Notes under the pieces: model-generated
Database searches by the model: none
Told to the model about the DNA's origin: nothing
The model's input: only the letters and a program-made list of their open reading frames with translations
Shown: positions 1,214 to 63,440 of the stretch, piece after piece
Numbering within the stretch: the first letter of the stretch is position 1
Layout of the letters: each line of letters starts with the position of its first letter
Assembly: GCA_016284045.1 (NCBI GenBank)
Contig: JAEEOB010000106.1
Coordinates: forward strand, 1-64,000
Origin: Bacteroidaceae bacterium
Lineage (GTDB): Bacteria > Bacteroidota > Bacteroidia > Bacteroidales > Bacteroidaceae
Direction of reading: 5' to 3'
DNA length: 64,000 nt
Made by a program: the position numbers and the translations under genes

Positions 1214-2158
1214 CTATCTTACTGTAATGTGAAAACAAGGCTGTCGGTGTTCATGCTTCACATAGCATTTTCCTTCGTTTCGTAAATCGAAGAGAACCTC
1301 GGCGAGCGTGAGTTTCAGTTCGCTCCGCTTCCATTCGGCACTATCTACAGGTGTTGGAATGCCGGTGAGTGGCATGTAGCGGCTGTAGGTGATGTCGAAG
1401 GTTGTGCCGTAGCTGTGGCATGAGTTCTCTGTGGCATTACGGTTGTTGCGGGTCAGTTTTTTCACATCAAGAGTGGACCGAAGAGCAGAGGTCACTATTG
1501 GTAGATAAGGCTTCTGGCCTTTCGAACGTAGCGAGTCAAGGAAATTCAAGGAGATTGTAGTCAGTAAGTCTTTGGCTTTTGGAACCAGATATGGCATAGA
1601 ATAATTCATCTTTTCTACCACGAAAAAGGGTGAACCGCTGATGCTTACCAGCTGATGTCTGCGGGCTTTCCACAATACAGCACGGTGGGTAGCGACAGGC
1701 TGAATTCCATGTTCCATCGCACTGATGATATGTTGGTCCTGCGTGTCGGGCAGACATTCGTCGTAGTCCCATATTTTGCCGCTTTGGCGGAACAACGCCG
1801 TGTTGCGGCGGTTGATGCTGTCTTGGCGGAGCGAATCCTCCAAGGCTAATATCAGTGAGTCATTTTCTTCATCTGCTGACTCTGTCGTGTCTTTTTCTAC
1901 AATCTGCATTTTTGATTCTTTCTGCTTGACAGCATTTGGAGCAAGGACTTGCGGTTCTTCGCAGGAAAAATCAGCTTCACTGACTGGTGTTTCAGCCATT
2001 AATATCTTCAGGGAATCAGCTTTCTCATCCTTTGGCTTGCCGTTTTCGTAAGGGGGAACAAACAAGTTGAACAAATGGCGCAGAGAAGCCAAGACTCCTA
2101 TGGTAATCAAAAATACCATAAGGAATCTCAGTGCCTCTTGCTTTTTGCTTCTTGCCAT
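1214..2158 (-). CDS. DUF5715-type, M15 peptidase-like membrane-anchored protein
   Basis: 314 residues. The first 30 hold one membrane segment (residues 10-30, FLMVFLITIGVLASL) preceded by basic residues, so the rest should face the periplasm. A low-complexity linker to about residue 110 is followed by a conserved C-terminal domain. That domain has the order SALRST (about 220), SCHSYGTTFDITY (about 243) and CYVKHEHRQPCFHITV at the end. The H-x6-D spacing and terminal His resemble the zinc ligands of the VanY/M15 peptidase fold. Family knowledge: Bacteroidota proteins of this kind are classed as DUF5715. A role in cell-wall peptide trimming is inferred; no substrate can be read from the sequence. 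The start is an ATG preceded by a period-7 repeat rather than a ribosome binding site. Confidence 0.62.
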   Translation of the reverse strand: MARSKKQEALRFLMVFLITIGVLASLRHLFNLFVPPYENGKPKDEKADSLKILMAETPVSEADFSCEEPQVLAPNAVKQKESKMQIVEKDTTESADEENDSLILALEDSLRQDSINRRNTALFRQSGKIWDYDECLPDTQDQHIISAMEHGIQPVATHRAVLWKARRHQLVSISGSPFFVVEKMNYSMPYLVPKAKDLLTTISLNFLDSLRSKGQKPYLPIVTSALRSTLDVKKLTRNNRNATENSCHSYGTTFDITYSRYMPLTGIPTPVDSAEWKRSELKLTLAEVLFDLRNEGKCYVKHEHRQPCFHITVR

Positions 2159-2248: not shown

Positions 2249-4975
2249 CTAAACTCTTCCAGAATGTTCAATCAATTCGTGGATATGTTCGCTCAGACTA
2301 GTGTTGTCGGCAAGTGCACTAACTGGCAAATGCATACGCCAACGCCAGTAGTGACGCGGATTCGAAGGGATATTAATTCGTTCGCCGTTGGCATCAGGAT
2401 TTCTTACCTCTTCGTCAATGGCAAGCCAGTCCTGAAGCGATAGCAAACAGAGCATCGACGGACTGTAGAGATGACGGCTTACGATTTTCTCTGCAAGCCA
2501 GCCTGGTAGGGTGGCAGGAGCCGTACCGTCAATGTCTAATGAGTTGTTGTAGTAGCGTTGGCTGCGCTCAGGGTCTTCCTCCCACCACTGACGGAGCGTG
2601 CTCATATCGTGGGTGGAAATGGTGGCAACCGATAAGTAGGGATTATCGCTCAATTTTCCGAACTCCACTCCAAAAGCTTTCGGCATGCTCTGAATCTCCA
2701 AGCTCAGAATACGCAGGTTATCCATTAAGGTCGGCACACAGGCAGGAACCATGCCTAAGTCCTCGGCGCATACAAGCATTCTTGTGCACTGGGTGAGCAT
2801 AGGCAGTTTCTTCATAGCCTCATGATACCAGAAGTCGTTATGACGGCGGTAGAAATAGTCTTCATAAAGCTTCTCGAATGCATATTTGTCGCTGTCAGGC
2901 AAATATTTGAATACCCAGTCCTGAGTGGCGCTGATGCGGGGGTGGTAGCCGTGGGGATTGTCGGGGTCGATGACGAACAGCACGTTGCTAATAAGGGCGT
3001 ACAGTCCGTCACGGAGTGAGATGGAGTCTTCGTCTTCCTTACCGGCAAACGCTGCCTCCACCTTGCGCTGGGTGTCATATTCTGGCTTCAGCTTATAAAG
3101 ACCGTTCACTCCGCCGAAGGTGTTGAAGGCGTTGTCACCGCCCATATTGCCGGCATTGTCGAGGTATAACATCTTCACCATGTCGGTGCGGTAACCGAAC
3201 ATCTGATAGAGGATGTCATCGTTGATGAACGGCTGGGTCATCAGCTTGCGGTTGAAATGCACGCCGTAGGACTCGATTTCGCTCTGGCTCAGCGGGAGGG
3301 AAGGGGAGAAATGACCGAGAAGACCGTGGACGGAATGTGAAGGTATCTCCCAGATGCGGAAGAACCCGAGCACATGGTCGATGCGGTAGGCATCGAAATA
3401 TTCTGACATCTTTGTGAAACGGCGTTTCCACCATGAATAGCCGTCAGAGGCCATCTCATCCCAGTTGTAGGTGGGGAAACCCCAGTTCTGACCGTTTGTG
3501 GAGAAAGCATCTGGTGGTGCACCCGCTTGAGCGTCCATGTTGAAGTAATGGGGCTCGCTCCAGGCTTCCACGCTGGTACGGCTGATACCGATGGGGATGT
3601 CACCCTTGATAATCACGCCGCAGGCTTTGGCGTGCTCATGTACGTCGGTTAGCTGAAGGTGCAGCTGGTACTGGATATAATAGTAGAGTGCCACACCAGC
3701 ATAGCTTTTGCTCTGAGGAGAGCATAACTTGCTCACGTTGCCTTTGTTGAAGCTGCTGTGTTTCGGCCATGTATGGAAATCAGGGGTGCCATAGGTGTCA
3801 CGAAGGTAACTGAAAGCGGCATAGGGCACCAGCCAGCTTTTGTTTGCCTCAAAGAACTTTTTGTAGTCATCGCTTGCTGATGTCGATTCCCATTCCTGCT
3901 CGTATGCCAGCCGGAAATATTCCATCTTGATGGCAATGGATGCCTCATAGTCCATCATCGGAGCACGGTTCAGCTCCTGCTGACGGATTTTGAACGTCTC
4001 CATCTTCAGGCTGTCGTGAAGCACTGGCAGGGAGTTAAGATCGGCGTAAAGCGGATGGAACGCATAAATCGAGATGGAGTTATAAGGATAGGAGTCCTGC
4101 CATTTACCCGACATCATCGTGTCGTTGATTGGAAGAATCTGAACCACATGCATACCCACGCTGGATGCCCAGCTGATCATCTCCTTCAGGTCTGCAAAGT
4201 CACCGACACCATAGCTGCGTTCAGTACGGAGTGAGAACACGGGAATCACCACGCCGGAACATTTCCAGTTGGAGATATTGAAACGTGGCGCTCTGTCTGT
4301 TTTCACCCAAGTCTGGTAATTACCGTTGATAAGTATTTTGTCGATATAACGGTTGGCACCCTCTTCCCACGAGATGATTTCACCAGACTCGTCTATAATT
4401 ACATATTTATATTCCAAAGGATGGAACAACTTGTCGGTGTCGATGTTCAGCGACCATTCCTGCAGGCCGGTCAGCTCCATAGGAACGGCTTTCTCCCAGT
4501 TCCCTAAGAGTGGGGTGTTGCCGCAGATTCCTAGCTGCTGGCCTTTCCGCAGACGCGGTTCGGTGATACGCAGCTGAAGAGTCGTCGGGAAATAGGTGAG
4601 GCTGGCGAGGGTTTTATGTTCATGACTTGCCACAACGTCGGTGTAGGCGCAGGAATAAAGCGGAAGATTATCGGGTATCGGACGCCAGCTGTCTTCAACG
4701 AAGAATGTTTGGGGAACCGAAGGCTTTTTTTTGCTCTTCGACTCTGCTGGTATGTAAATACTGTGGGAGCCAATCTCCCATTCGCGCCACACAAACTGAC
4801 CGTTACGGTACATTGCGTAGTTATAGGTGAAAATACCGGGTTTTATTGACAGTTCGAGGTCACAGGTCCAGATGATGCCGTCTAGCGTGTTCATCTGATA
4901 TTCTTTTCCGTTTGCCTGAAGGCGGATGTCCTCACCCCAGTGTGTGCGGTATTCTATGGAAAATCTGAATAACAT
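2249..4975 (-). CDS. malQ: 4-alpha-glucanotransferase (amylomaltase, GH77) with two CBM20 starch-binding domains
   Basis: 908 residues. Two N-terminal starch-binding CBM20 domains cover about residues 1-100 and 120-230; the second has LGICGNTPLLGNWEKAVPM. The GH77 barrel starts near residue 245 with VIPVFSLRTERSYGVGDF. Catalytic signatures are present: DAYRIDHVLGFFRIWEIP (nucleophile Asp, about 528), CAEDLGMVP (acid/base Glu, about 736) and STHDMSTLRQWW. It transfers alpha-1,4-glucan chains between maltodextrins in the cytoplasm, as in glycogen and starch-sugar metabolism. The length and tandem CBM20 match the plant DPE2-like branch of the family rather than the shorter E. coli MalQ. No signal peptide is seen. 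The leader before the ATG is a period-7 array. Confidence 0.95.
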   Translation of the reverse strand: MLFRFSIEYRTHWGEDIRLQANGKEYQMNTLDGIIWTCDLELSIKPGIFTYNYAMYRNGQFVWREWEIGSHSIYIPAESKSKKKPSVPQTFFVEDSWRPIPDNLPLYSCAYTDVVASHEHKTLASLTYFPTTLQLRITEPRLRKGQQLGICGNTPLLGNWEKAVPMELTGLQEWSLNIDTDKLFHPLEYKYVIIDESGEIISWEEGANRYIDKILINGNYQTWVKTDRAPRFNISNWKCSGVVIPVFSLRTERSYGVGDFADLKEMISWASSVGMHVVQILPINDTMMSGKWQDSYPYNSISIYAFHPLYADLNSLPVLHDSLKMETFKIRQQELNRAPMMDYEASIAIKMEYFRLAYEQEWESTSASDDYKKFFEANKSWLVPYAAFSYLRDTYGTPDFHTWPKHSSFNKGNVSKLCSPQSKSYAGVALYYYIQYQLHLQLTDVHEHAKACGVIIKGDIPIGISRTSVEAWSEPHYFNMDAQAGAPPDAFSTNGQNWGFPTYNWDEMASDGYSWWKRRFTKMSEYFDAYRIDHVLGFFRIWEIPSHSVHGLLGHFSPSLPLSQSEIESYGVHFNRKLMTQPFINDDILYQMFGYRTDMVKMLYLDNAGNMGGDNAFNTFGGVNGLYKLKPEYDTQRKVEAAFAGKEDEDSISLRDGLYALISNVLFVIDPDNPHGYHPRISATQDWVFKYLPDSDKYAFEKLYEDYFYRRHNDFWYHEAMKKLPMLTQCTRMLVCAEDLGMVPACVPTLMDNLRILSLEIQSMPKAFGVEFGKLSDNPYLSVATISTHDMSTLRQWWEEDPERSQRYYNNSLDIDGTAPATLPGWLAEKIVSRHLYSPSMLCLLSLQDWLAIDEEVRNPDANGERINIPSNPRHYWRWRMHLPVSALADNTSLSEHIHELIEHSGRV

Positions 4976-4984
4976 GGTATTTTT

Positions 4985-5019
4985 GTGAATAGTGAAAAGT
5001 GAATAGTGGAAAGTGTAGT
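4985..5019. repeat. Period-7 array in the malQ leader
   Basis: GTGAATA, GTGAAAA, GTGAATA, GTGGAAA, GTGTAGT in exact 7-bp register, ending 9 nt before the malQ start codon. On the malQ message strand the unit reads CACTATT/CACTTTT. Confidence 0.75.
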
Positions 5020-6044: not shown

Positions 6045-6079
6045 TATTTAGTTTTTAGTTCTTAGTTTTCAGTTCTTTG
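6045..6079. repeat. Period-7 array bridging the pepD stop and the merR start
   Basis: TATTTAG, TTTTTAG, TTCTTAG, TTTTCAG, TTCTTTG in exact 7-bp register. The array covers the last codons and stop of pepD and reaches to 2 nt from the merR start codon. Confidence 0.75.
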
Positions 6080-7661: not shown

Positions 7662-8789
7662 ATGCGCTATTATCTGATTGCCGGTGAGGCATCCGGCGAC
7701 TTGCATGCCTCTAATCTCATGGCGGAGATTTTCAGAATCGATACGAAGGCTCTGTTCCGTTTCTATGGTGGCGACAAGATGCAGGAGGTGGGCGGCACGC
7801 TCGTGAAGCATTATAAGGAGATGTCGTATATGGGGTTCATCCCCGTACTCACACACGCACGCACAATCCTCCGAAACATGAAGGCGTGTAAGCGCGACGT
7901 GGCTAAATGGAAACCAGATGTGCTCATTCTCATCGATTATCCGGGATTCAACCTCGAGGTGGCGAAATACATCAAGACCCACACCGACATCCCCGTATAT
8001 TATTACATTTCCCCAAAAATATGGGCATGGAAAGAATACCGCATCAAAAGCATCAGAAAATATGTGGATGAGCTGTTCTCGATTTTGCCATTCGAGGTGG
8101 ATTTCTTCCAGAAAAAGCATCATTACCCCATCCATTACGTGGGAAACCCTTGTGTGGATGCAGTGGAGGAGTTCCGGCAGACGTTAGGTGAAGAAAAATC
8201 AGCTGTTACCGGCAAGTTGCCGATTATTGCGGTGCTTGCAGGCAGCCGCGTGCAGGAAGTCAAGAAGAACCTGGCTAAGATGCTTCTTGCAGCTTCGAAG
8301 ATCGGGGGATATCAATCAGTAGTGGCTGGTGCGCCGAATATCCCGATGGATATATATAAAAAATATATCCCTAAGGGGATGGATGTGGAGGTGAGGTTCA
8401 ACAGCACATACGAAATCCTCAGTCAGGCAGATGCGGCACTTGTCACAAGCGGGACGGCAACGCTGGAGACGGCACTTCTTAATGTGCCTCAGGTGGTCTG
8501 TTACTATCTCTCGGCGGGCAAGTTCATGAAATGGTTGAAAGGTGTTATTCTCAAGGTGGAGTTTGTATCGCTTGTAAACCTTATTAGTGGAAAAGAAATC
8601 GTGAAGGAACTCATCGCATCCGACATGACTGTCGATAAAGTCTATAACGAGCTGAAGGCAATCCTCCCGGGAGGAGAAAAAAGGCAGAAAATGCTTGACG
8701 ACTATGAGGAGATGCGCCATATCATCGGACCGGCCGGAGCATCACGACGGGCTGCCGAAATCATGGTGAAACTGCTAACTAAAAACTAA
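7662..8789 (+). CDS. lpxB: Lipid-A-disaccharide synthase
   Basis: 375 residues from ATG 7662 (MRYYLIAGEASGDLHASNLM, the classic LpxB N-terminus). The frame extends to TTG 7638, but that codon is inside the promoter. Family motifs: GEASGD (residues 7-12), YYISPKIWAWKEYR (about 122), VGNPCVD, LAGSRVQEVKKNL (about 194) and TSGTATLETAL (about 263). The GT19 enzyme joins UDP-2,3-diacylglucosamine and lipid X to make the lipid A disaccharide at the inner face of the inner membrane. The stop codon is embedded in a period-7 repeat that leads into the next gene, suggesting co-transcription with it. Confidence 0.96.
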   Translation: MRYYLIAGEASGDLHASNLMAEIFRIDTKALFRFYGGDKMQEVGGTLVKHYKEMSYMGFIPVLTHARTILRNMKACKRDVAKWKPDVLILIDYPGFNLEVAKYIKTHTDIPVYYYISPKIWAWKEYRIKSIRKYVDELFSILPFEVDFFQKKHHYPIHYVGNPCVDAVEEFRQTLGEEKSAVTGKLPIIAVLAGSRVQEVKKNLAKMLLAASKIGGYQSVVAGAPNIPMDIYKKYIPKGMDVEVRFNSTYEILSQADAALVTSGTATLETALLNVPQVVCYYLSAGKFMKWLKGVILKVEFVSLVNLISGKEIVKELIASDMTVDKVYNELKAILPGGEKRQKMLDDYEEMRHIIGPAGASRRAAEIMVKLLTKN

Positions 8790-8801
8790 CAACTAAAATA
8801 C
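8774..8801. repeat. Period-7 array bridging the lpxB stop and the next start
   Basis: GCTAACT, AAAAACT, AACAACT, AAAATAC in 7-bp register. It supplies the last codons and the TAA stop of lpxB and ends 4 nt before the ATG at 8806. Confidence 0.7.
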
Positions 8802-9871: not shown

Positions 9872-9897
9872 ATACATATATTTGAATAATGATTAAT

Positions 9898-9918
9898 TTT
9901 TAGTTTTTAGTTTTTAGT
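9898..9918. repeat. Period-7 array, TTTTTAG x3
   Basis: TTTTTAG repeated three times, then TTTTTTG, in perfect 7-bp register in the intergenic region between rsmA and the flippase gene. Confidence 0.75.
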
Positions 9919-10013
9919 TTTTTGTGGATTTCTTTGTTTTCCGGGTATCAGCGGGGAGCACTGGAGGTTCGCTGGCATCATCCAAGGTTTTTATGGGGGC
10001 ACCATAACTTGAA

Positions 10014-14608: not shown

Positions 14609-14622
14609 GGTTGAGCGTTTTA

Positions 14623-14703
14623 TCTAGTCATTGTAGTTTATCTAGTTAGTCTAGTTCATCTAGTCAGCCTAGTTTGTCTAGTCAGCCTAGCAAAAACTAG
14701 TTC
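14623..14703. repeat. Period-9 CTAG array in the hsdR leader
   Basis: Nine consecutive 9-mers: TCTAGTCAT, TGTAGTTTA, TCTAGTTAG, TCTAGTTCA, TCTAGTCAG, CCTAGTTTG, TCTAGTCAG, CCTAGCAAA, AACTAGTTC. The first ends 15 bases before the hsdR start codon. The last overlaps the final codons of the four-helix-bundle pseudogene, whose TAG stop is one of the units. Confidence 0.85.
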
Positions 14704-20823: not shown

Positions 20824-20921
20824 ATTAAAAAAAATGAAAAATCTTCAGTATTGGCTTGCAGGTTAACCAAACATTTCAGCCCCCATTTTGCCGTTGTGCG
20901 ATTCAGGGGAGGGTAAATACA

Positions 20922-20942
20922 CTTTTCACTATTCACTTCGTA
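20922..20942. repeat. Short period-7 run, CACTTTT type
   Basis: CACTTTT, CACTATT, CACTTCG in 7-bp register between surE and hsdM; the same 7-mer family as the arrays around malQ. Confidence 0.5.
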
Positions 20943-21005
20943 GAACCTTGTCACGACCCGGCAAATCTCGAACACGTTCGGATCTGCGCTTGCTGCTCCA
21001 AGGTT

Positions 21006-21809
21006 TCACTTAATCAGCTTCTCCTTCAGGAAATCAAAAGCACTGTAAGCCGTGAAGTCAAGCGTGATGGGAGTGATGGCGATATATCCGTTGTCCAAAG
21101 CCCAGATGTCGGTGGAAGGATCATCGCCGTCGTAACTTTTGAAACTGCCGGCTATCCAGAAATATTTGCCGCCGCGGGGATGGTCGCGCTCAATCCATTC
21201 GTCAATCCAGTCGCCCATGCCCATACGGCAGATTCTCATTCCTTTGAATTGTTCACATGAGGGGAAATTCACGTTCAGGAACACTTTGTCGGGCAGTCCG
21301 TTGGCAAGCACCATGCTCACAATCTCGCGAATGGGTGCTGCCAGCCGCTTGAAGTCGTCGGCACCGCTGAACGCACAGCTTGAGAATCCCACCGACGGAA
21401 TTTCTTTCAAGGTGCCTTCTATCGCGATGCCTATGGTACCTGAATAGTGGGCGTTCGTGGCTGCGTTATCACCGTGGTTGATGCCACCAATCACGATGTC
21501 GGGACGGCGGGGAAGCAGAAACTCCAATGCCATCTTCACGCAATCGCAAGGGGTGCCGCTACAGCTATATACAGTCAGACTTCCAAGTTCCCTGCCCTCT
21601 ACAATTTTTCTATTCTCCTCTCGTTCTTTATTATATTTCACAGGAACAGTGCCCGTGATCGACAGCGAAGAGCCCGAACGGCCGCCATCGGGAGCAACGA
21701 CGATGATATCGCCTAAATCACGTAATATTTCTATCAACACACTGATGCCGGTGGCATCAAAACCATCATCGTTCGATAACAGCAACAGAGGGCGTTCGTT
21801 TTGTTCCAT
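21006..21809 (-). CDS. surE: 5'-nucleotidase SurE
   Basis: 267 residues from ATG at 21807-21809 (MEQNERPLLLLSNDDGFDATG). The acidic metal site NDDG, the GTVPVKYN region, SGTPCDCVKMALEFLL, the GINHGDN motif (about 102) and YSGTIGIAIEG are all present. SurE removes phosphate from nucleoside 5'/3'-monophosphates in stress and stationary phase. The frame extends 15 codons further to 21854, but the -7 element at 21842-21849 lies inside that extension, so the shorter start is chosen. Confidence 0.95.
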   Translation of the reverse strand: MEQNERPLLLLSNDDGFDATGISVLIEILRDLGDIIVVAPDGGRSGSSLSITGTVPVKYNKEREENRKIVEGRELGSLTVYSCSGTPCDCVKMALEFLLPRRPDIVIGGINHGDNAATNAHYSGTIGIAIEGTLKEIPSVGFSSCAFSGADDFKRLAAPIREIVSMVLANGLPDKVFLNVNFPSCEQFKGMRICRMGMGDWIDEWIERDHPRGGKYFWIAGSFKSYDGDDPSTDIWALDNGYIAITPITLDFTAYSAFDFLKEKLIK

Positions 21810-22630: not shown

Positions 22631-25585
22631 ATGCCGATACAGAACAACAAATCGAATAACAACAAAAGCAAGTTCAACCTCACATGGGTATATGTGGCGG
22701 TGCTGGCTTTCGTGTTCTTCTTTATCATGACCAACAACGAGGAGTCCATGATGAAGGTGAACTACACTAAATTCCAGGAATGTCTCGACAGCGGTTATGT
22801 CGCCAATATCAAGGTCGATAAGACGGAGCAGGAGCTTTTCTTTGAGTTGAAGCCCGACAGTATAGTCCCGGCTGCCAATATCCTCCCCAAGGAGGCGAAG
22901 GCGAAGTCGGCGCTGGTCACCAATTTTGCCACGGTTGACAAGCTCGATGAGTTCGTGGCAGAGAAGAAAGCTGAGGGCAAATTCCAGGGAGAGGTGAAAT
23001 ATGAGAATGGAGGAGGCGGCTTTTGGAGCGTGTTTATGCAGTTCGTGTTCCCGTTCCTCCTGATCATTCTCTTCTGGATGTTCATCATGCGCCGTATGGG
23101 CGGCGGTGGTGGCGGTGGTGTCTTCTCTTTCGGTAAATCAAAAGCAAAACTATTTGAAGGGGGAGGCAACGGACAGGATCGTATCACATTCAAGGATGTT
23201 GCCGGACTGGCAGGAGCCAAACAAGAGGTGCAGGAAGTGGTCGATTTCCTACGCAACCCACAGAAATATACTGAGTTGGGTGGTAAGATTCCTAAGGGCA
23301 TACTTCTTGTGGGACCTCCTGGAACCGGTAAGACTCTTTTGGCAAAGGCTGTGGCAGGAGAGGCCAACGTGGCATTCTTCTCTCTCTCAGGTTCAGATTT
23401 TGTTGAGATGTTCGTTGGAGTGGGGGCGTCGAGAGTGCGCGACCTCTTCAATCAGGCCAAGGCGAAAGCTCCGAGCATCGTGTTCATCGACGAGATTGAT
23501 GCTATCGGACGAGCAAGAAGCGGAAAATCAAGCATACAGTCGAACGATGAGCGTGAGAGCACACTCAACCAGCTGCTTACCGAGATGGACGGTTTCGGTG
23601 CCAACACCGGTGTTATCGTCATGGCTGCCACTAACCGCGCTGATATTCTGGATAAGGCTCTTCTCAGAGCCGGACGTTTCGACAGGCAGATCACCGTCGA
23701 GCTTCCCGACCTCAAAGAGCGTCAGCAGATATTCAATGTGCATCTTAAACCAATCAAAATCGACGAGTCGGTGGATGTGGAGATGCTTGCAAGGCAAACT
23801 CCGGGACTTTCGGGAGCCGACATCGCGAATGTGTGCAACGAGGCTGCGCTTATAGCCGCCCGACGGCAGCAGGACTGGGTGGACAAACAGTGTTTCCTCG
23901 ATGCAGTTGACCGGGTGCTCGGAGGCCTGGAAAAGAAGACGAAGGTGATGACTGAGTCAGAGAAACGTACCATTGCCATACATGAGGCTGGACATGCCAC
24001 GATTTCTTGGTTCCTACAACACGCCAACCCGCTTGTGAAAGTGACTATCGTGCCGCGAGGCAACGCCCTCGGTGCCAACTGGTATATGCCAGAAGAAAGA
24101 CCGGTGACAACTAAAGAGGAACTGCTCGACCAAATCTGTGGACTGCTCGGAGGACGTGCGGCAGAGGAACTTTTCACCGGGCATATCTGCACAGGTGCCA
24201 GCAACGACCTGCAACGTGTGACCAATATGGTCTATAGCATGATTTCCATCTATGGTATGGGTGAGAAAATGCCGAATGTCAACTACTACGACTTTGCGGA
24301 GAACACGTTCACCAAGCCATACAGTGAGGCTACCGCACAGATGATTGATGAGGAGGTGAAAACTCTCATACAGCGCGAGTACGACCGTGCGAAACGGGTG
24401 CTTATCCAGCATTCAAGAGGCTTGCAGCAGCTTGCCCAGGTGCTCATCGAGAAAGAGGTGATTTATCCGGCTGACCTTGAGCGTATTTTCGGTCCGAGAC
24501 AGTGGAAGTCGAGGTCGGACGAAATCATGGAACTCAATAAAAACTTGGGTGCCAACGGGCAGGATGGGACAGACGAATCAACCGACTTCGACGACGAGAA
24601 CGCTGAGTTCATTCGTCAGAAAGCGGTCGAAGCTGTGCTTGAGAAGCAACGCCGTTTGCAGGAGCAGAATGCCCTGAATCAGGAAGCCGGAAACGGAAAT
24701 GCTTCACAAGGCATGACAGGTGCAGCTGGAGCCGCAGGTGCAGCAGGCATGGCGGGCGCAACTGGTTACACCCCCGATTCCGACTATAGCCAGACTTACC
24801 AGCCGTCGGCTGAGCAGGATAATAAGCAGTCGGGAGGCACATCTGACGACAACGACTACAACCCGATTTTCGACAGTTGGTCTTCTTCTTCTTCTGCTGC
24901 TTATTCTGAAGAGACGGAAACATCACGGGACGAGCTGACTTCCGAACCGGTGGAAGAAAATGAACCGGAACCGCTTGTCCCTGCCTCATCAGACGAAATG
25001 GGTGCAGAACTGGCAGTGGATGAAAATGCAGGAGAAGTGGTTTCTGAAGCACAGGCTGACCATATCGATGAAGATGATGAGCCGGTTATCGATTTGAACG
25101 ATGATGAAGAAGAGCAGGTGGTCATTGAAGAAGATGAACCTGCCCACGGAGAGTCAGAACCTGCCGACAATTCAGATGAAGGGCAACCTGCTGAAGAACA
25201 GAAACCGCAAGACAGTGATGTTCCTGCTGGAAAAAACGTTTCAAAGGAAACTGCATCAGTCAAGCATAGCGCGTTTGAGCCAACTTTATTTGCCGATGAA
25301 CTCGACGATAACGGATATGACTCTGCTGAGCCTGAAGAGGAGCCTATTGCTGATTCTGATTCACTTCCCGATACAGAGGACAGCTCAGCAGAACATTCGG
25401 CTGAGCCGGAACCCCCTCAGGATCCTGAGGAAGAAGAAGGTGAATACGTGATGGTCAATGAAGGACGGAAGAAAGACATTGATTTCGTTGAAGTTGTGCC
25501 TGCTGACGAACGTGCCGGCGAAGACAAGGGCAATAAAAAAGATGACGAGGATGAGCCGGAACTCACGATTACCCTCGATGAGTAG
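22631..25585 (+). CDS. ftsH: ATP-dependent zinc metalloprotease FtsH with a very long acidic tail
   Basis: 984 residues against about 650-700 in most species. Order: first membrane helix (residues 19-36), periplasmic domain, second helix ([15 protein letters not shown]), glycine-rich linker ([10 protein letters not shown]), AAA domain with Walker A GPPGTGKT (about 228) and FIDEIDAIG, second region of homology, and peptidase domain with zinc motif HEAGH (about 451). From about residue 640 a tail of some 345 residues follows: a collagen-like [15 protein letters not shown] stretch and then Asp/Glu/Ser/Pro-rich sequence to [13 protein letters not shown]. FtsH degrades membrane and regulatory proteins. 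The tail is predicted disordered and faces the cytoplasm. No frameshift is needed to reach it. Confidence 0.96.
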
Positions 25586-25612
25586 TTTGTAGTTTATTGT
25601 TTGTAGTTGTTT
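25579..25612. repeat. Period-7 array starting in the ftsH stop codon
   Basis: GAGTAGT, TTGTAGT, TTATTGT, TTGTAGT, TGTTTA in 7-bp register; the first unit contains the TAG stop of ftsH. Confidence 0.65.
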
Positions 25613-30240: not shown

Positions 30241-30325
30241 GGAGTTAAAATTTCATTTGGAGTTATAATTCCTGTCAGGAATTGGAGTTAATCCTTCGGA
30301 TGGAGTTAACGAGCCTGCGGCTCGT
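30241..30325. repeat. GGAGTTAA / mini-hairpin array in the BNR-gene leader
   Basis: Octamers GGAGTTAA at 30241, 30284 and 30302 (plus GGAGTTAT at 30259) are separated by inverted repeats AATTCCTG-T-CAGGAATT (30267-30283), ATCC-TTC-GGAT (30291-30301) and ACGAGCC-TGC-GGCTCGT (30309-30325). On the message strand of the gene at 30218 the octamer reads TTAACTCC. Confidence 0.85.
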
Positions 30326-30374
30326 GGATGCTAGTTTTGCCAATGATAATACAATATCCATTTACTTGCTATTG

Positions 30375-33927: not shown

Positions 33928-33963
33928 GGTGTGATTCTTTTGGGGGGGGTGATAGGTTTTAGG

Positions 33964-34071
33964 CTTACTAGGTTTACTAGGTTAACTAGGCTTACTAGGT
34001 TTACTAGGTTAACTAGGCTTACTAGGTTAACTAGGCTTACTAGTTTTACTAGGTTAACTAGGCTTACTAGG
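33964..34071. repeat. Period-9 ACTAGG array in the leader of the membrane-protein gene
   Basis: Twelve units of the form [C/T]T[T/A]ACTAGG follow each other in 9-bp register, except one unit with a 1-bp slip near 34043. Units cycle CTTACTAGG, TTTACTAGG, TTAACTAGG, giving a higher-order period of 27. It ends about 37 bases upstream of the TTG start at 33927. Confidence 0.9.
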
Positions 34072-34108: not shown

Positions 34109-34150
34109 ATTCATCATTCTTCATTCATCATTCTTCATTCATCATTCTTC
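34109..34150. repeat. Period-7 array, ATTCATC/ATTCTTC, at the plsC 3' end
   Basis: ATTCATC and ATTCTTC alternate three times (period 7, higher-order 14). The array includes the stop codon and last codons (Lys-Asn-Glu-Glu) of plsC. Confidence 0.9.
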
Positions 34151-34867
34151 ATTTTTTTCCAGCTTGCTGTGGATGATGTCCCATGTGTCCTGCATGAACT
34201 TCTTGGTGGGGTGCTGCCGATAGACTTCTGTAGGGATAACATCGTGGACAAAAAGTCGGAGTGTGCCGTGACTGACAGACTTCGCTTTGCGGCTGAATAT
34301 CTTGAAGGAGCCGTTTATAGTCATGGGCACGATTGGTAGCCCAATCTCGTTGGAGAGCATGAAGGCTCCCCGCTTGAACTCTCCCATCTCCCCGTCGAAA
34401 GTGCGGGTGCCCTCAGGGAATATCACCATCGACATACCACCCTGCAGTGTCTTACGTGACTGTTGTACTGCCTTCTGTATGCCGCTGCGTGTGTCATCAA
34501 CAAAAATCTGGCCAGACACCTTGCACGCCAGCCCCACAAACGGAATCTTACGCAGGTATTCCTTCATCATCCATTTGAAGTTGTGACCAAGATATCCGTA
34601 AATCAGGAAGATGTCGAAATATCCCTGATGGTTAGCCAGAAACACATACGACTGCTTCTTCGACAGTTTCTCTCTGCCCTCTACCTTGATTCCGAGCAGG
34701 AACAACCGGCAGGTGAAGCGCGACCACCACTTGCACATGAAATAATCCACGATGTCTTTGTCGCCCAGAAGGGCAGCGAACATAATGATCAGCGCTGTGA
34801 TAATGGTGATTATCACAAATAGTGGTAGCGCGATACAAAAAGAATACAGTTTATATAAGAAATTCAT
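34142..34867 (-). CDS. plsC: 1-acyl-sn-glycerol-3-phosphate acyltransferase
   Basis: 241 residues. An N-terminal membrane segment (ALPLFVIITIITALIIMFAAL) precedes the acyltransferase motifs NHQGYFDIF (H-x4-D, about 78), a KEYLRKIPFVG stretch, FPEGTRTFDG (about 150) and IVPMTING. It makes phosphatidic acid, the substrate of CdsA, at the inner membrane. It lies 110 bases downstream of the metallophosphoesterase gene on the same strand. That spacer is a hairpin/octamer array. Confidence 0.92.
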   Translation of the reverse strand: MNFLYKLYSFCIALPLFVIITIITALIIMFAALLGDKDIVDYFMCKWWSRFTCRLFLLGIKVEGREKLSKKQSYVFLANHQGYFDIFLIYGYLGHNFKWMMKEYLRKIPFVGLACKVSGQIFVDDTRSGIQKAVQQSRKTLQGGMSMVIFPEGTRTFDGEMGEFKRGAFMLSNEIGLPIVPMTINGSFKIFSRKAKSVSHGTLRLFVHDVIPTEVYRQHPTKKFMQDTWDIIHSKLEKNEE

Positions 34868-43845: not shown

Positions 43846-43907
43846 TGAGATAAATGATTTTTAAATAGCAATTATAATGCCATCTGAGTACTAAGATTAT
43901 CCAGAAT

Positions 43908-44004
43908 CTCCTATAACCTCTTATAATCTCCTATAACCTCTTATAATCTCCTATAATTTCCTATAATCTCCTATAATCTCTTATAATTTCCTATAACCTC
44001 TTAG
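43908..44004. repeat. Period-10 CTATAA array in the leader of the DUF4450-type gene
   Basis: Nine 10-mers in exact register from 43911: CTATAACCTC, TTATAATCTC, CTATAACCTC, TTATAATCTC, CTATAATTTC, CTATAATCTC, CTATAATCTC, TTATAATTTC, CTATAACCTC. It ends 26 bases before the ATG at 44030. Confidence 0.92.
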
Positions 44005-47866: not shown

Positions 47867-47908
47867 CTCTCAACACTCAACTTTTAACTATAAACATTAA
47901 ATTTTTAC
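47867..47908. repeat. Period-7 array in the SH3-protein leader
   Basis: CTCTCAA, CACTCAA, CTTTTAA, CTATAAA, CATTAAA, TTTTTAC in 7-bp register, ending 4 bases before the ATG at 47913. Confidence 0.75.
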
Positions 47909-48472: not shown

Positions 48473-48490
48473 GTTCCACAATTTATAAAA

Positions 48491-48564
48491 TCTATAATAT
48501 CCTATATTATCCTATATATTCCTATATCATCCTATAAATTCCTATATCATCCTATAAATTCCTG
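48491..48564. repeat. Period-10 CCTATA array between converging genes
   Basis: TCTATAATAT, CCTATATTAT, CCTATATATT, CCTATATCAT, CCTATAAATT, CCTATATCAT, CCTATAAATT in exact 10-bp register. Unlike most arrays here it has no start codon downstream. Confidence 0.9.
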
Positions 48565-60953: not shown

Positions 60954-61057
60954 CCAGGAAACCTAGGAAACCCTAGGAACTCCTAGGAAACCCTGGGAAT
61001 CCCTAGGAAAACCTAGTAATCCTAGTAATCCTAGGAAAACTAGAAAATCCTAGAAAT
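60954..61057. repeat. Period-10/9 CCTAGG array in the aspC leader
   Basis: From 60962: CCTAGGAAAC, CCTAGGAACT, CCTAGGAAAC, CCTGGGAATC, CCTAGGAAAA, CCTAGTAAT, CCTAGTAAT, CCTAGGAAAA, CTAGAAAAT, CCTAGAAAT. The period changes from 10 to 9 along the array. Confidence 0.88.
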
Positions 61058-61098
61058 CAAAACTCCTGGCAAAAACCTCCTCCCTCCCAACTTTTCCC

Positions 61099-61140
61099 TT
61101 TATCCTTTACACTTTACACTTTACATTTTACCCTATAAAA
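61099..61140. repeat. Period-7 TTTACAC array just before the aspC start
   Basis: TTTATCC, TTTACAC, TTTACAC, TTTACAT, TTTACCC, TATAAAA in exact 7-bp register, ending 6 bases before the ATG at 61147. Confidence 0.88.
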
Positions 61141-63161: not shown

Positions 63162-63440
63162 TAGACTGGCGAAGCATAGTCAATCATTTGCAAACAATAC
63201 TTTTTTCTTTCATCCTTCTTCGGGCATCTTTTATAGTTTATAGTTTTTTGTAGCGGATGGCTTTTGTTTTTCATCCGTATTCGGACATCAAGCCCTCGAC
63301 GGCTGACACGGTCGGGACGACCAAGTCCCCAGCCGAACCCGATTGGGGTTTCGAACTAATTCTGTAGCCACAGGCTCGTTAACTCCCATTCGAAGAATTA
63401 ACTCCCTTTTTATGCAAGAAATTTAACTTTAAATAAAAAA
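63162..63440. promoter_or_regulatory. Structured leader region of the CatA-like gene
   Basis: Contains a short period-7 run (TTTATAG twice, about 63231-63246), CGGATG/CATCCG, and a GC-rich nested fold at 63300-63335: outer CGGCTG/CAGCCG, inner GGTC-GGGAC-GACC, with GGGAC also able to pair GTCCC (63325-63329). AACCC-GATTG-GGGTT follows. A TTAACTCC hairpin element is at 63379-63405. Confidence 0.5.
63379..63405. repeat. TTAACTCC / mini-hairpin element before the CatA-like gene
   Basis: TTAACTCC (63379-63386), hairpin ATTC-GAA-GAAT (63388-63398), TTAACTCC (63398-63405). The upstream GTAGCC-ACA-GGCTCG is a near copy of the CGAGCC-TGC-GGCTCG hairpin at 30310-30324, in the same position relative to the octamers. 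Confidence 0.8.

Follow-up and report, generated by a model that had tools for sequence, protein, structure and literature searches.

The window, by which we mean the whole 64-kb stretch of DNA analysed, occupies the first 64 kb of contig C72, which belongs to a genome of 3.37 Mb in 243 contigs that is 79% complete. The best identity of its M20 peptidase to relatives in named records was 67%, and those relatives are gut Bacteroidales metagenome-assembled genomes such as Candidatus Minthosoma. Known RNA families were represented in the window by a tRNA only. Start codons are approximate because genes were called by longest ORF only. The spacers and gene borders of the window carry the following period-7 features, which, with the one exception marked, had been listed in the first-pass annotation.

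1185-1201, + strand: short period-7 stretch CTTTTCACTTTCCACTT (CACTTTT family), immediately 3′ to the stop codon that ends gene 1214-2158 (minus strand)
2167-2201, + strand: TTTATAG array lying upstream of the DUF5715 gene 1214-2158 (minus strand), about 9 bp from its start
2206-2231, + strand: CACTTTT-family element with header, GTAAATACACTTTCCACTTTTCACT, adjoining the stop of the GH77 gene 2249-4975 (minus strand)
4985-5015, + strand: GTGAATA/GTGAAAA period-7 array upstream of the GH77 gene (minus strand), 10 bp from its start
6047-6074, + strand: TTTTTAG-family array flanked by the stop of the M20 peptidase gene and the start of the MerR gene (minus strand)
8777-8796, + strand: AACTAAA array where the lpxB ORF ends, about 10 bp ahead of the following ATG
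9893-9925, + strand: TTTTTAG array in a divergent spacer
20912-21010, + strand: composite element downstream of surE, with header GTAAATACAC and CACTTTT/CACTATT heptamers, then an inserted core and a terminal CACTTAA
22072-22096, + strand: TTTTTAC period-7 stretch between tRNA-Gln and rsfS, absent from the earlier list
25582-25608, + strand: TTTGTAG-family array at the ftsH stop codon
25641-25659, + strand: short AAACCGT period-7 stretch before a cdsA-like gene (ATG 25674)
34109-34156, + strand: ATTCATC/ATTCTTC array of period 7/14, which overlaps gene 34142-34867 (acyltransferase, minus strand) at its 3′ end
47869-47901, + strand: headline array of degenerate AACTCTC/AACTTTT/AACTATA units between the rubrerythrin gene and an SH3 gene (ATG 47913)
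61091-61131, + strand: CTTTACA array, followed after 15 bp by an aminotransferase gene (ATG 61147) and preceded by a period-10 array at 60956-61058
63230-63246, + strand: short TTTATAG array adjoining a dispersed non-coding element at 63267-63336

Of the lags from 4 to 12, lag 7 scored highest at all 14 of the previously listed sites; local shuffling gave P values of 0.002-0.010, which are nominal because the sites were preselected. At most of these sites Tandem Repeats Finder also reported a repeat of period 7. With a lag-7 identity of 73%, the headline array belongs to the weaker examples. Across the window alone, lag-7 autocorrelation reached z=4.3, and lags 3, 9, 10, 18, 21 and 27 were about equally high, so that 7 does not stand out from the window's data taken alone. 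Stretches sampled from the genome covered 653 kb (0.65 of 3.37 Mb), including 78 kb of intergenic DNA. When arrays scoring at least 12 were counted in the genome's own intergenic DNA and in dinucleotide shuffles, 47 of period 7 were observed compared with 0 in the shuffles. With the same sample and cut-off, periods 5 and 6 gave 0 each and periods 8, 9 and 10 gave 8, 7 and 11; periods 14 and 21 are harmonics of 7. Raw autocorrelation in 33 kb of own intergenic DNA was also in excess at lag 7 (0.029, compared with 0.011, 0.023 and 0.015 at lags 6, 8 and 9), with lag 8 nearly equal to lag 7 in this measure and the array counts separating the two. The first-pass annotation had claimed a fixed period of 7 at many loci, to be judged by whether intergenic DNA favours 7 over 6, 8 and 9. 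The claim is borne out by the array counts, and, with the caveat on raw autocorrelation at lag 8, the flat profile that it had named as its own disproof was not seen. In the window's genome, which is that of an uncultured gut-type Bacteroidales bacterium, short tandem repeats of a strictly 7-base unit occur between genes at hundreds of places.

Each locus had been thought to have a unit of its own; instead, most units fell into a few families found at many loci. The main families in the window's genome are TTTTTAG/TTTATAG, CACTTTT/CACTATT, TAAATNG and TCTAAAG. The TTTTTAG-type dimer TTTTTAGTTTTTAG had 334 matches with at most one mismatch in this genome, compared with 29 for the reversed pattern. 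No tested genus mate showed an excess of TTTTTAGTTTTTAG at a similar level, and elsewhere in the order or family such an excess was seen in only a few sampled genomes (e.g., G154, G173, G279 and G293). Because CACTTTTCACTATTCAC reads almost the same backwards, its reversed pattern is no valid control, and only absolute counts were used for it. CACTTTT-type matches ranged from 0 to 431 among genus mates and reappeared in other genera. The dominant units were CATTCTT and AAAAGTT in G002 and CACTTTT in G008, and G003 had a mixture with AACTTTA, AACTGAT and AACTCTA. An ACT core common to all units was considered and discarded (22 vs 16.5 expected, z=1.6). Sister species differ in their dominant unit: the period is constant and the unit is a property of the genome. 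Period-7 arrays numbered 6.2 per 10 kb of intergenic DNA in the window's genome, 4.8 to 15.9 in six genus mates and 1.2 in 80 loci from other Bacteroidales. None was found in two genomes of another genus of the same family, or in G004 and the genus mates G010 and G001, for which less than 5 kb of intergenic DNA was sampled.

The comparison of unit number between close relatives that had been proposed for these arrays was made with G003 and G012, sister species whose aligned DNA is 93-97% identical, and it revealed that copy number changes by whole units of 7, 14 or 21 bases. Among indels of at least 4 bases, 9 of 16 inside arrays were multiples of 7, compared with 7 of 45 elsewhere (P=0.003), a result that supports the 7-base copying process suggested in the first-pass annotation; the other 7 of the 16 were not multiples of 7, some of them lying at degenerate array edges. 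In one spacer, the array after the stop codon differs by 21 bases between the two species and its neighbour by 7. Units can also be replaced at a fixed site: L189:16084-16248 and L191 keep the header CATCCGCATGGC, followed by AACTTTA/AACATTA units in one species and AACTCTC/AACACTA units in the other. Between less closely related species most arrays were gained or lost, and in a few spacers the unit or the period differed from species to species. Of the window's arrays, the one at 2167-2201 is absent from the orthologous spacers of G003 and G012, no array lies upstream of their SH3 gene, and the 9893-9925 array was not found in 5 orthologous spacers. In place of the 4985-5015 array, G003 and G012 carry a period-6 AGTAGA/AGTGGA array; the spacer of 6047-6074 holds GAGAGTC/GAGGGTC heptamers in G009, and that of 61091-61131 holds in G012 a period-9 array and then AACTCTA heptamers. 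Conservation of array slots between species was not significant (Fisher P 0.07 to 1.0), despite suggestive single cases.

Arrays were densest in convergent spacers (9.9 per 10 kb), followed by tandem (8.6) and divergent spacers (4.4; convergent vs divergent, P=0.004), and their coverage was about equal in start-proximal and stop-proximal DNA. The shared place just before start codons that had been reported for the window did not hold up, as there is no start-codon preference genome-wide and the listed arrays at 9897, 20920, 25582, 34109 and 63230 lie at gene 3′ ends or in mid-spacer. A polarity was seen. In the genus, 101 of 131 arrays are oriented so that the strand with more C than G runs into the nearest gene (P=3.5e-10); these comprise 60 of 74 on the start side and 41 of 57 on the stop side, while non-array spacer DNA shows little skew. 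This orientation, which was noticed after the fact, holds separately in the window's genome, G003 and G002; as a general rule it is absent in held-out species (13/25, other genera; 28/45, P=0.14). An alternative rule based on the A-rich strand reached P=0.05 only and was dropped.

It has to be considered whether the arrays are candidate unstructured, G-poor leaders that would aid ribosome start without a Shine-Dalgarno sequence, or that might be bound once per 7 nucleotides by S1 or another RNA-binding protein, as proposed for the TAACTGA repeats (PMC4679880). For many arrays a start codon is indeed no more than 40 bp away, the G-less strand near starts is mostly the sense strand (the 60 start-side arrays above), and no structure is predicted for the headline array. 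Nevertheless, this explanation is very improbable, given that convergent spacers are richer in arrays than divergent ones, that stop codons are adjoined equally often, that orthologous genes mostly have no array and that A-rich and T-rich units are both found before starts. The densest occurrence in convergent spacers and the equal occurrence near starts and stops make a leader-specific function unlikely, and the role in ribosome access suggested earlier is not supported, arrays being mostly not conserved at orthologous sites. Shine-Dalgarno sequences are commonly missing in Bacteroidetes, and their absence at these genes is therefore no evidence of a special role for the arrays.

Some arrays in G002, G006, G008, G003 and G012 form inverted pairs with matching variant units. 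Such pairs involved 20 of 133 arrays, compared with 2.7% of random pairings (P=9e-9), and three of them are predicted to fold at −51, −55 and −31 kcal/mol (z −12, −10 and −8). A similar inverted pair occurs at the rubrerythrin 3′ end in two species. By analogy with the cyanobacterial STRR (PMC2670836), the arrays may be arms of intergenic inverted repeats acting as candidate transcript stabilisers or terminators. The matched variants, the predicted folds and the rubrerythrin pair are consistent with this, as is the polarity, which would be expected if inverted pairs whose 5′ arm carries G gave rise to many of the arrays. However, no inverted partner scoring at least 12 was found for any of the 42 arrays of the window's own genome, the window spacer 2159-2248 is predicted to fold no better than shuffles, and the polarity was not seen in the 13/25 held-out comparison; as an account of the arrays in general, hairpin arms are unlikely. 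Distinctly doubtful, too, is a broader scheme in which the arrays would be gene-border cassettes across the genus, G-bearing heptamers following stops and C-bearing ones preceding starts, with period and polarity kept and units rewritten by inverted-arm template switching and inter-locus conversion, so as to serve as hairpin arms or as sites of whole-spacer exchange.

The CACTTTT arrays are a unit family with a conserved header. At 35 loci in three species they begin with a GTAAATACAC-like header, and many finish with CACTTAA. In the window, the array at 20920 belongs to this headed group. It also contains the inserted core, which is about 70 bp long (CGTAGAACCTTGTCACGACC...GCTCCAAGGTTT) and is present at other loci too; that this core inserts is evident from the pair of occupied and empty sites in relatives described below. 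A MITE-like core, CGTAGAATCTTGTCACGA...GCTCCAAGATT, lies inside heptamer arrays at L200:16043-16324 of G003 and at about 10 sites of G012 (95-97% identical), with recent activity and an empty site in the sister species. The conserved header and tail of the 35 loci and the near-identity of the mobile-looking core at many G012 sites would fit arrays that are ends or parts of mobile, MITE-like elements spread by transposition. Against this, in the occupied and empty pair of G003 L200 and G012 L229 only the core was inserted, the heptamer array being present in both species and therefore the older part; moreover, dispersed repeats are not preferentially beside arrays. We consider spread by transposition quite improbable. 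The related possibility that heptamer arrays are ends of other dispersed repeats was rejected (11 adjoining vs 7.8 expected).

Other repeats were met as well. The dispersed element CATCGAGCCCTCGACGCTTGACACGG...CCCCCAGCCGA (window 63267-63336; L140, L143, L144 and L145) is bordered at some copies by heptamer arrays, and another dispersed non-coding element, GGGAGTTAACGAGCCTGAGGCTCGTGGACGATAGTTTTGCCAATGATAA, has a central palindrome (window 30285-30350; L140, L144, L006 and L017). Period-10/20 arrays with TCTCCTATAA and AGGAAATCCT units lie in spacers and are also dispersed through the genome (window 43905-44003, 48484-48563 and 60956-61058; L130, L133 and L021). Period-9/18 arrays occur in the window at 14619-14690 and 33960-34071 (TTTATCTAGTCAGTCTAG; TAGGTTTAC), and relatives carry GTCCGACAG period-9 arrays in other spacers. 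Arrays of the period-22 class (20-23) are found across Bacteroidales, with a sequence that differs at each locus; 20 of period 22 were counted in 147 kb of intergenic DNA, and sites of the class include L029:10208-10369, L099:7952-8040, L091:9789 and L094:4546. At L140:6712-6866 and dozens of G003/G012 sites, the 3′ ends of coding genes share a repeat of about 155 bp (75-88% identity, many sites per genome) that reads like a repeated C-terminal protein domain.

Taken together, the arrays are probably fast-turning heptanucleotide tandem repeats dispersed through the intergenic DNA of this genus, that is, long simple repeats of the STRR type, shaped by slippage or recombination together with copying between loci. 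Within an array, units are added or lost in 7-base steps, as seen between the two sister species, and replication slippage or recombination would be the cause. Arrays are probably also copied or converted from one locus to another, since a small set of unit families dominates each genome, this set changes from one close species to the next, and a header and a tail are conserved in one of the families. The match of variant units between inverted arms suggests that template switching between these arms may contribute in some relatives. The arrays would persist because spacers tolerate them. Slippage alone is opposed by the hundreds of loci that share one unit in a genome and another unit in the next genome, and neutral slippage does not predict the C-strand orientation (101/131). 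No transposition or conversion event of an array with defined ends was caught in the species comparisons. Slippage combined with copying between loci explains most observations, but not the preference for 7 over 6 or 8. One genome can hold several heptamer families and neighbouring species replace them, a situation that a purely local slippage model does not explain. As the arrays of the two sister genomes differ by 7, 14 and 21 bases and by unit swaps at fixed sites, rate, mechanism and any selection are directly measurable here, and this genus is well suited to asking why 7 is the preferred unit length.

Heptamer repeats of comparable kinds have been described in other bacteria. The first-pass annotation held that slippage could not favour one length at many unrelated sequences; this is contradicted by Mrazek et al. 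(2007), who, as summarised in later papers (PMC4679880, PMC4692102), reported that heptanucleotides are preferred among longer bacterial repeats, attributed the preference to polymerase slippage and suggested as a reason for 7 that about 7 nucleotides of DNA interact with the polymerase. According to the same summaries, the repeats of Mrazek et al. are, like ours, intergenic, and period 7 is the commonest class among units of 5-11 nt; unlike the repeats as summarised there, the arrays described here are short and degenerate, fall into several families per genome and have their units replaced between sister species. The STRR of filamentous cyanobacteria also have 7-bp units, lie in intergenic regions and between operon genes at many loci and form some hairpins (PMC4692102, PMC2670836). 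The window's genome and its relatives likewise have an exact 7-bp excess, unit families at many intergenic loci and whole-unit copy changes, although the phylum and the units are different and no inverted pair was seen among the 42 arrays of the window's own genome. The TAACTGA repeats of marine Beggiatoaceae, some cyanobacteria and five Bacteroidetes are direct heptamer repeats often situated a few bases before a start codon, with 7-nt indels between close strains (PMC4679880), and TAACTGA-like AACTGAT arrays are present in G003. Those repeats, however, consist of one unit at 169 loci (PMC4679880), whereas several units are found here, starts are not preferred over stops, and the arrays are not placed mainly just upstream of starts in forward orientation. 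The GGGAATC repeats of Xanthomonas and Nostoc, found at about 180 intergenic sites, resemble our arrays in being heptamers and in varying in length between close species, but they are G-rich quadruplex candidates (PMC4692102), while the arrays here are AT-rich with at most an isolated G per unit.
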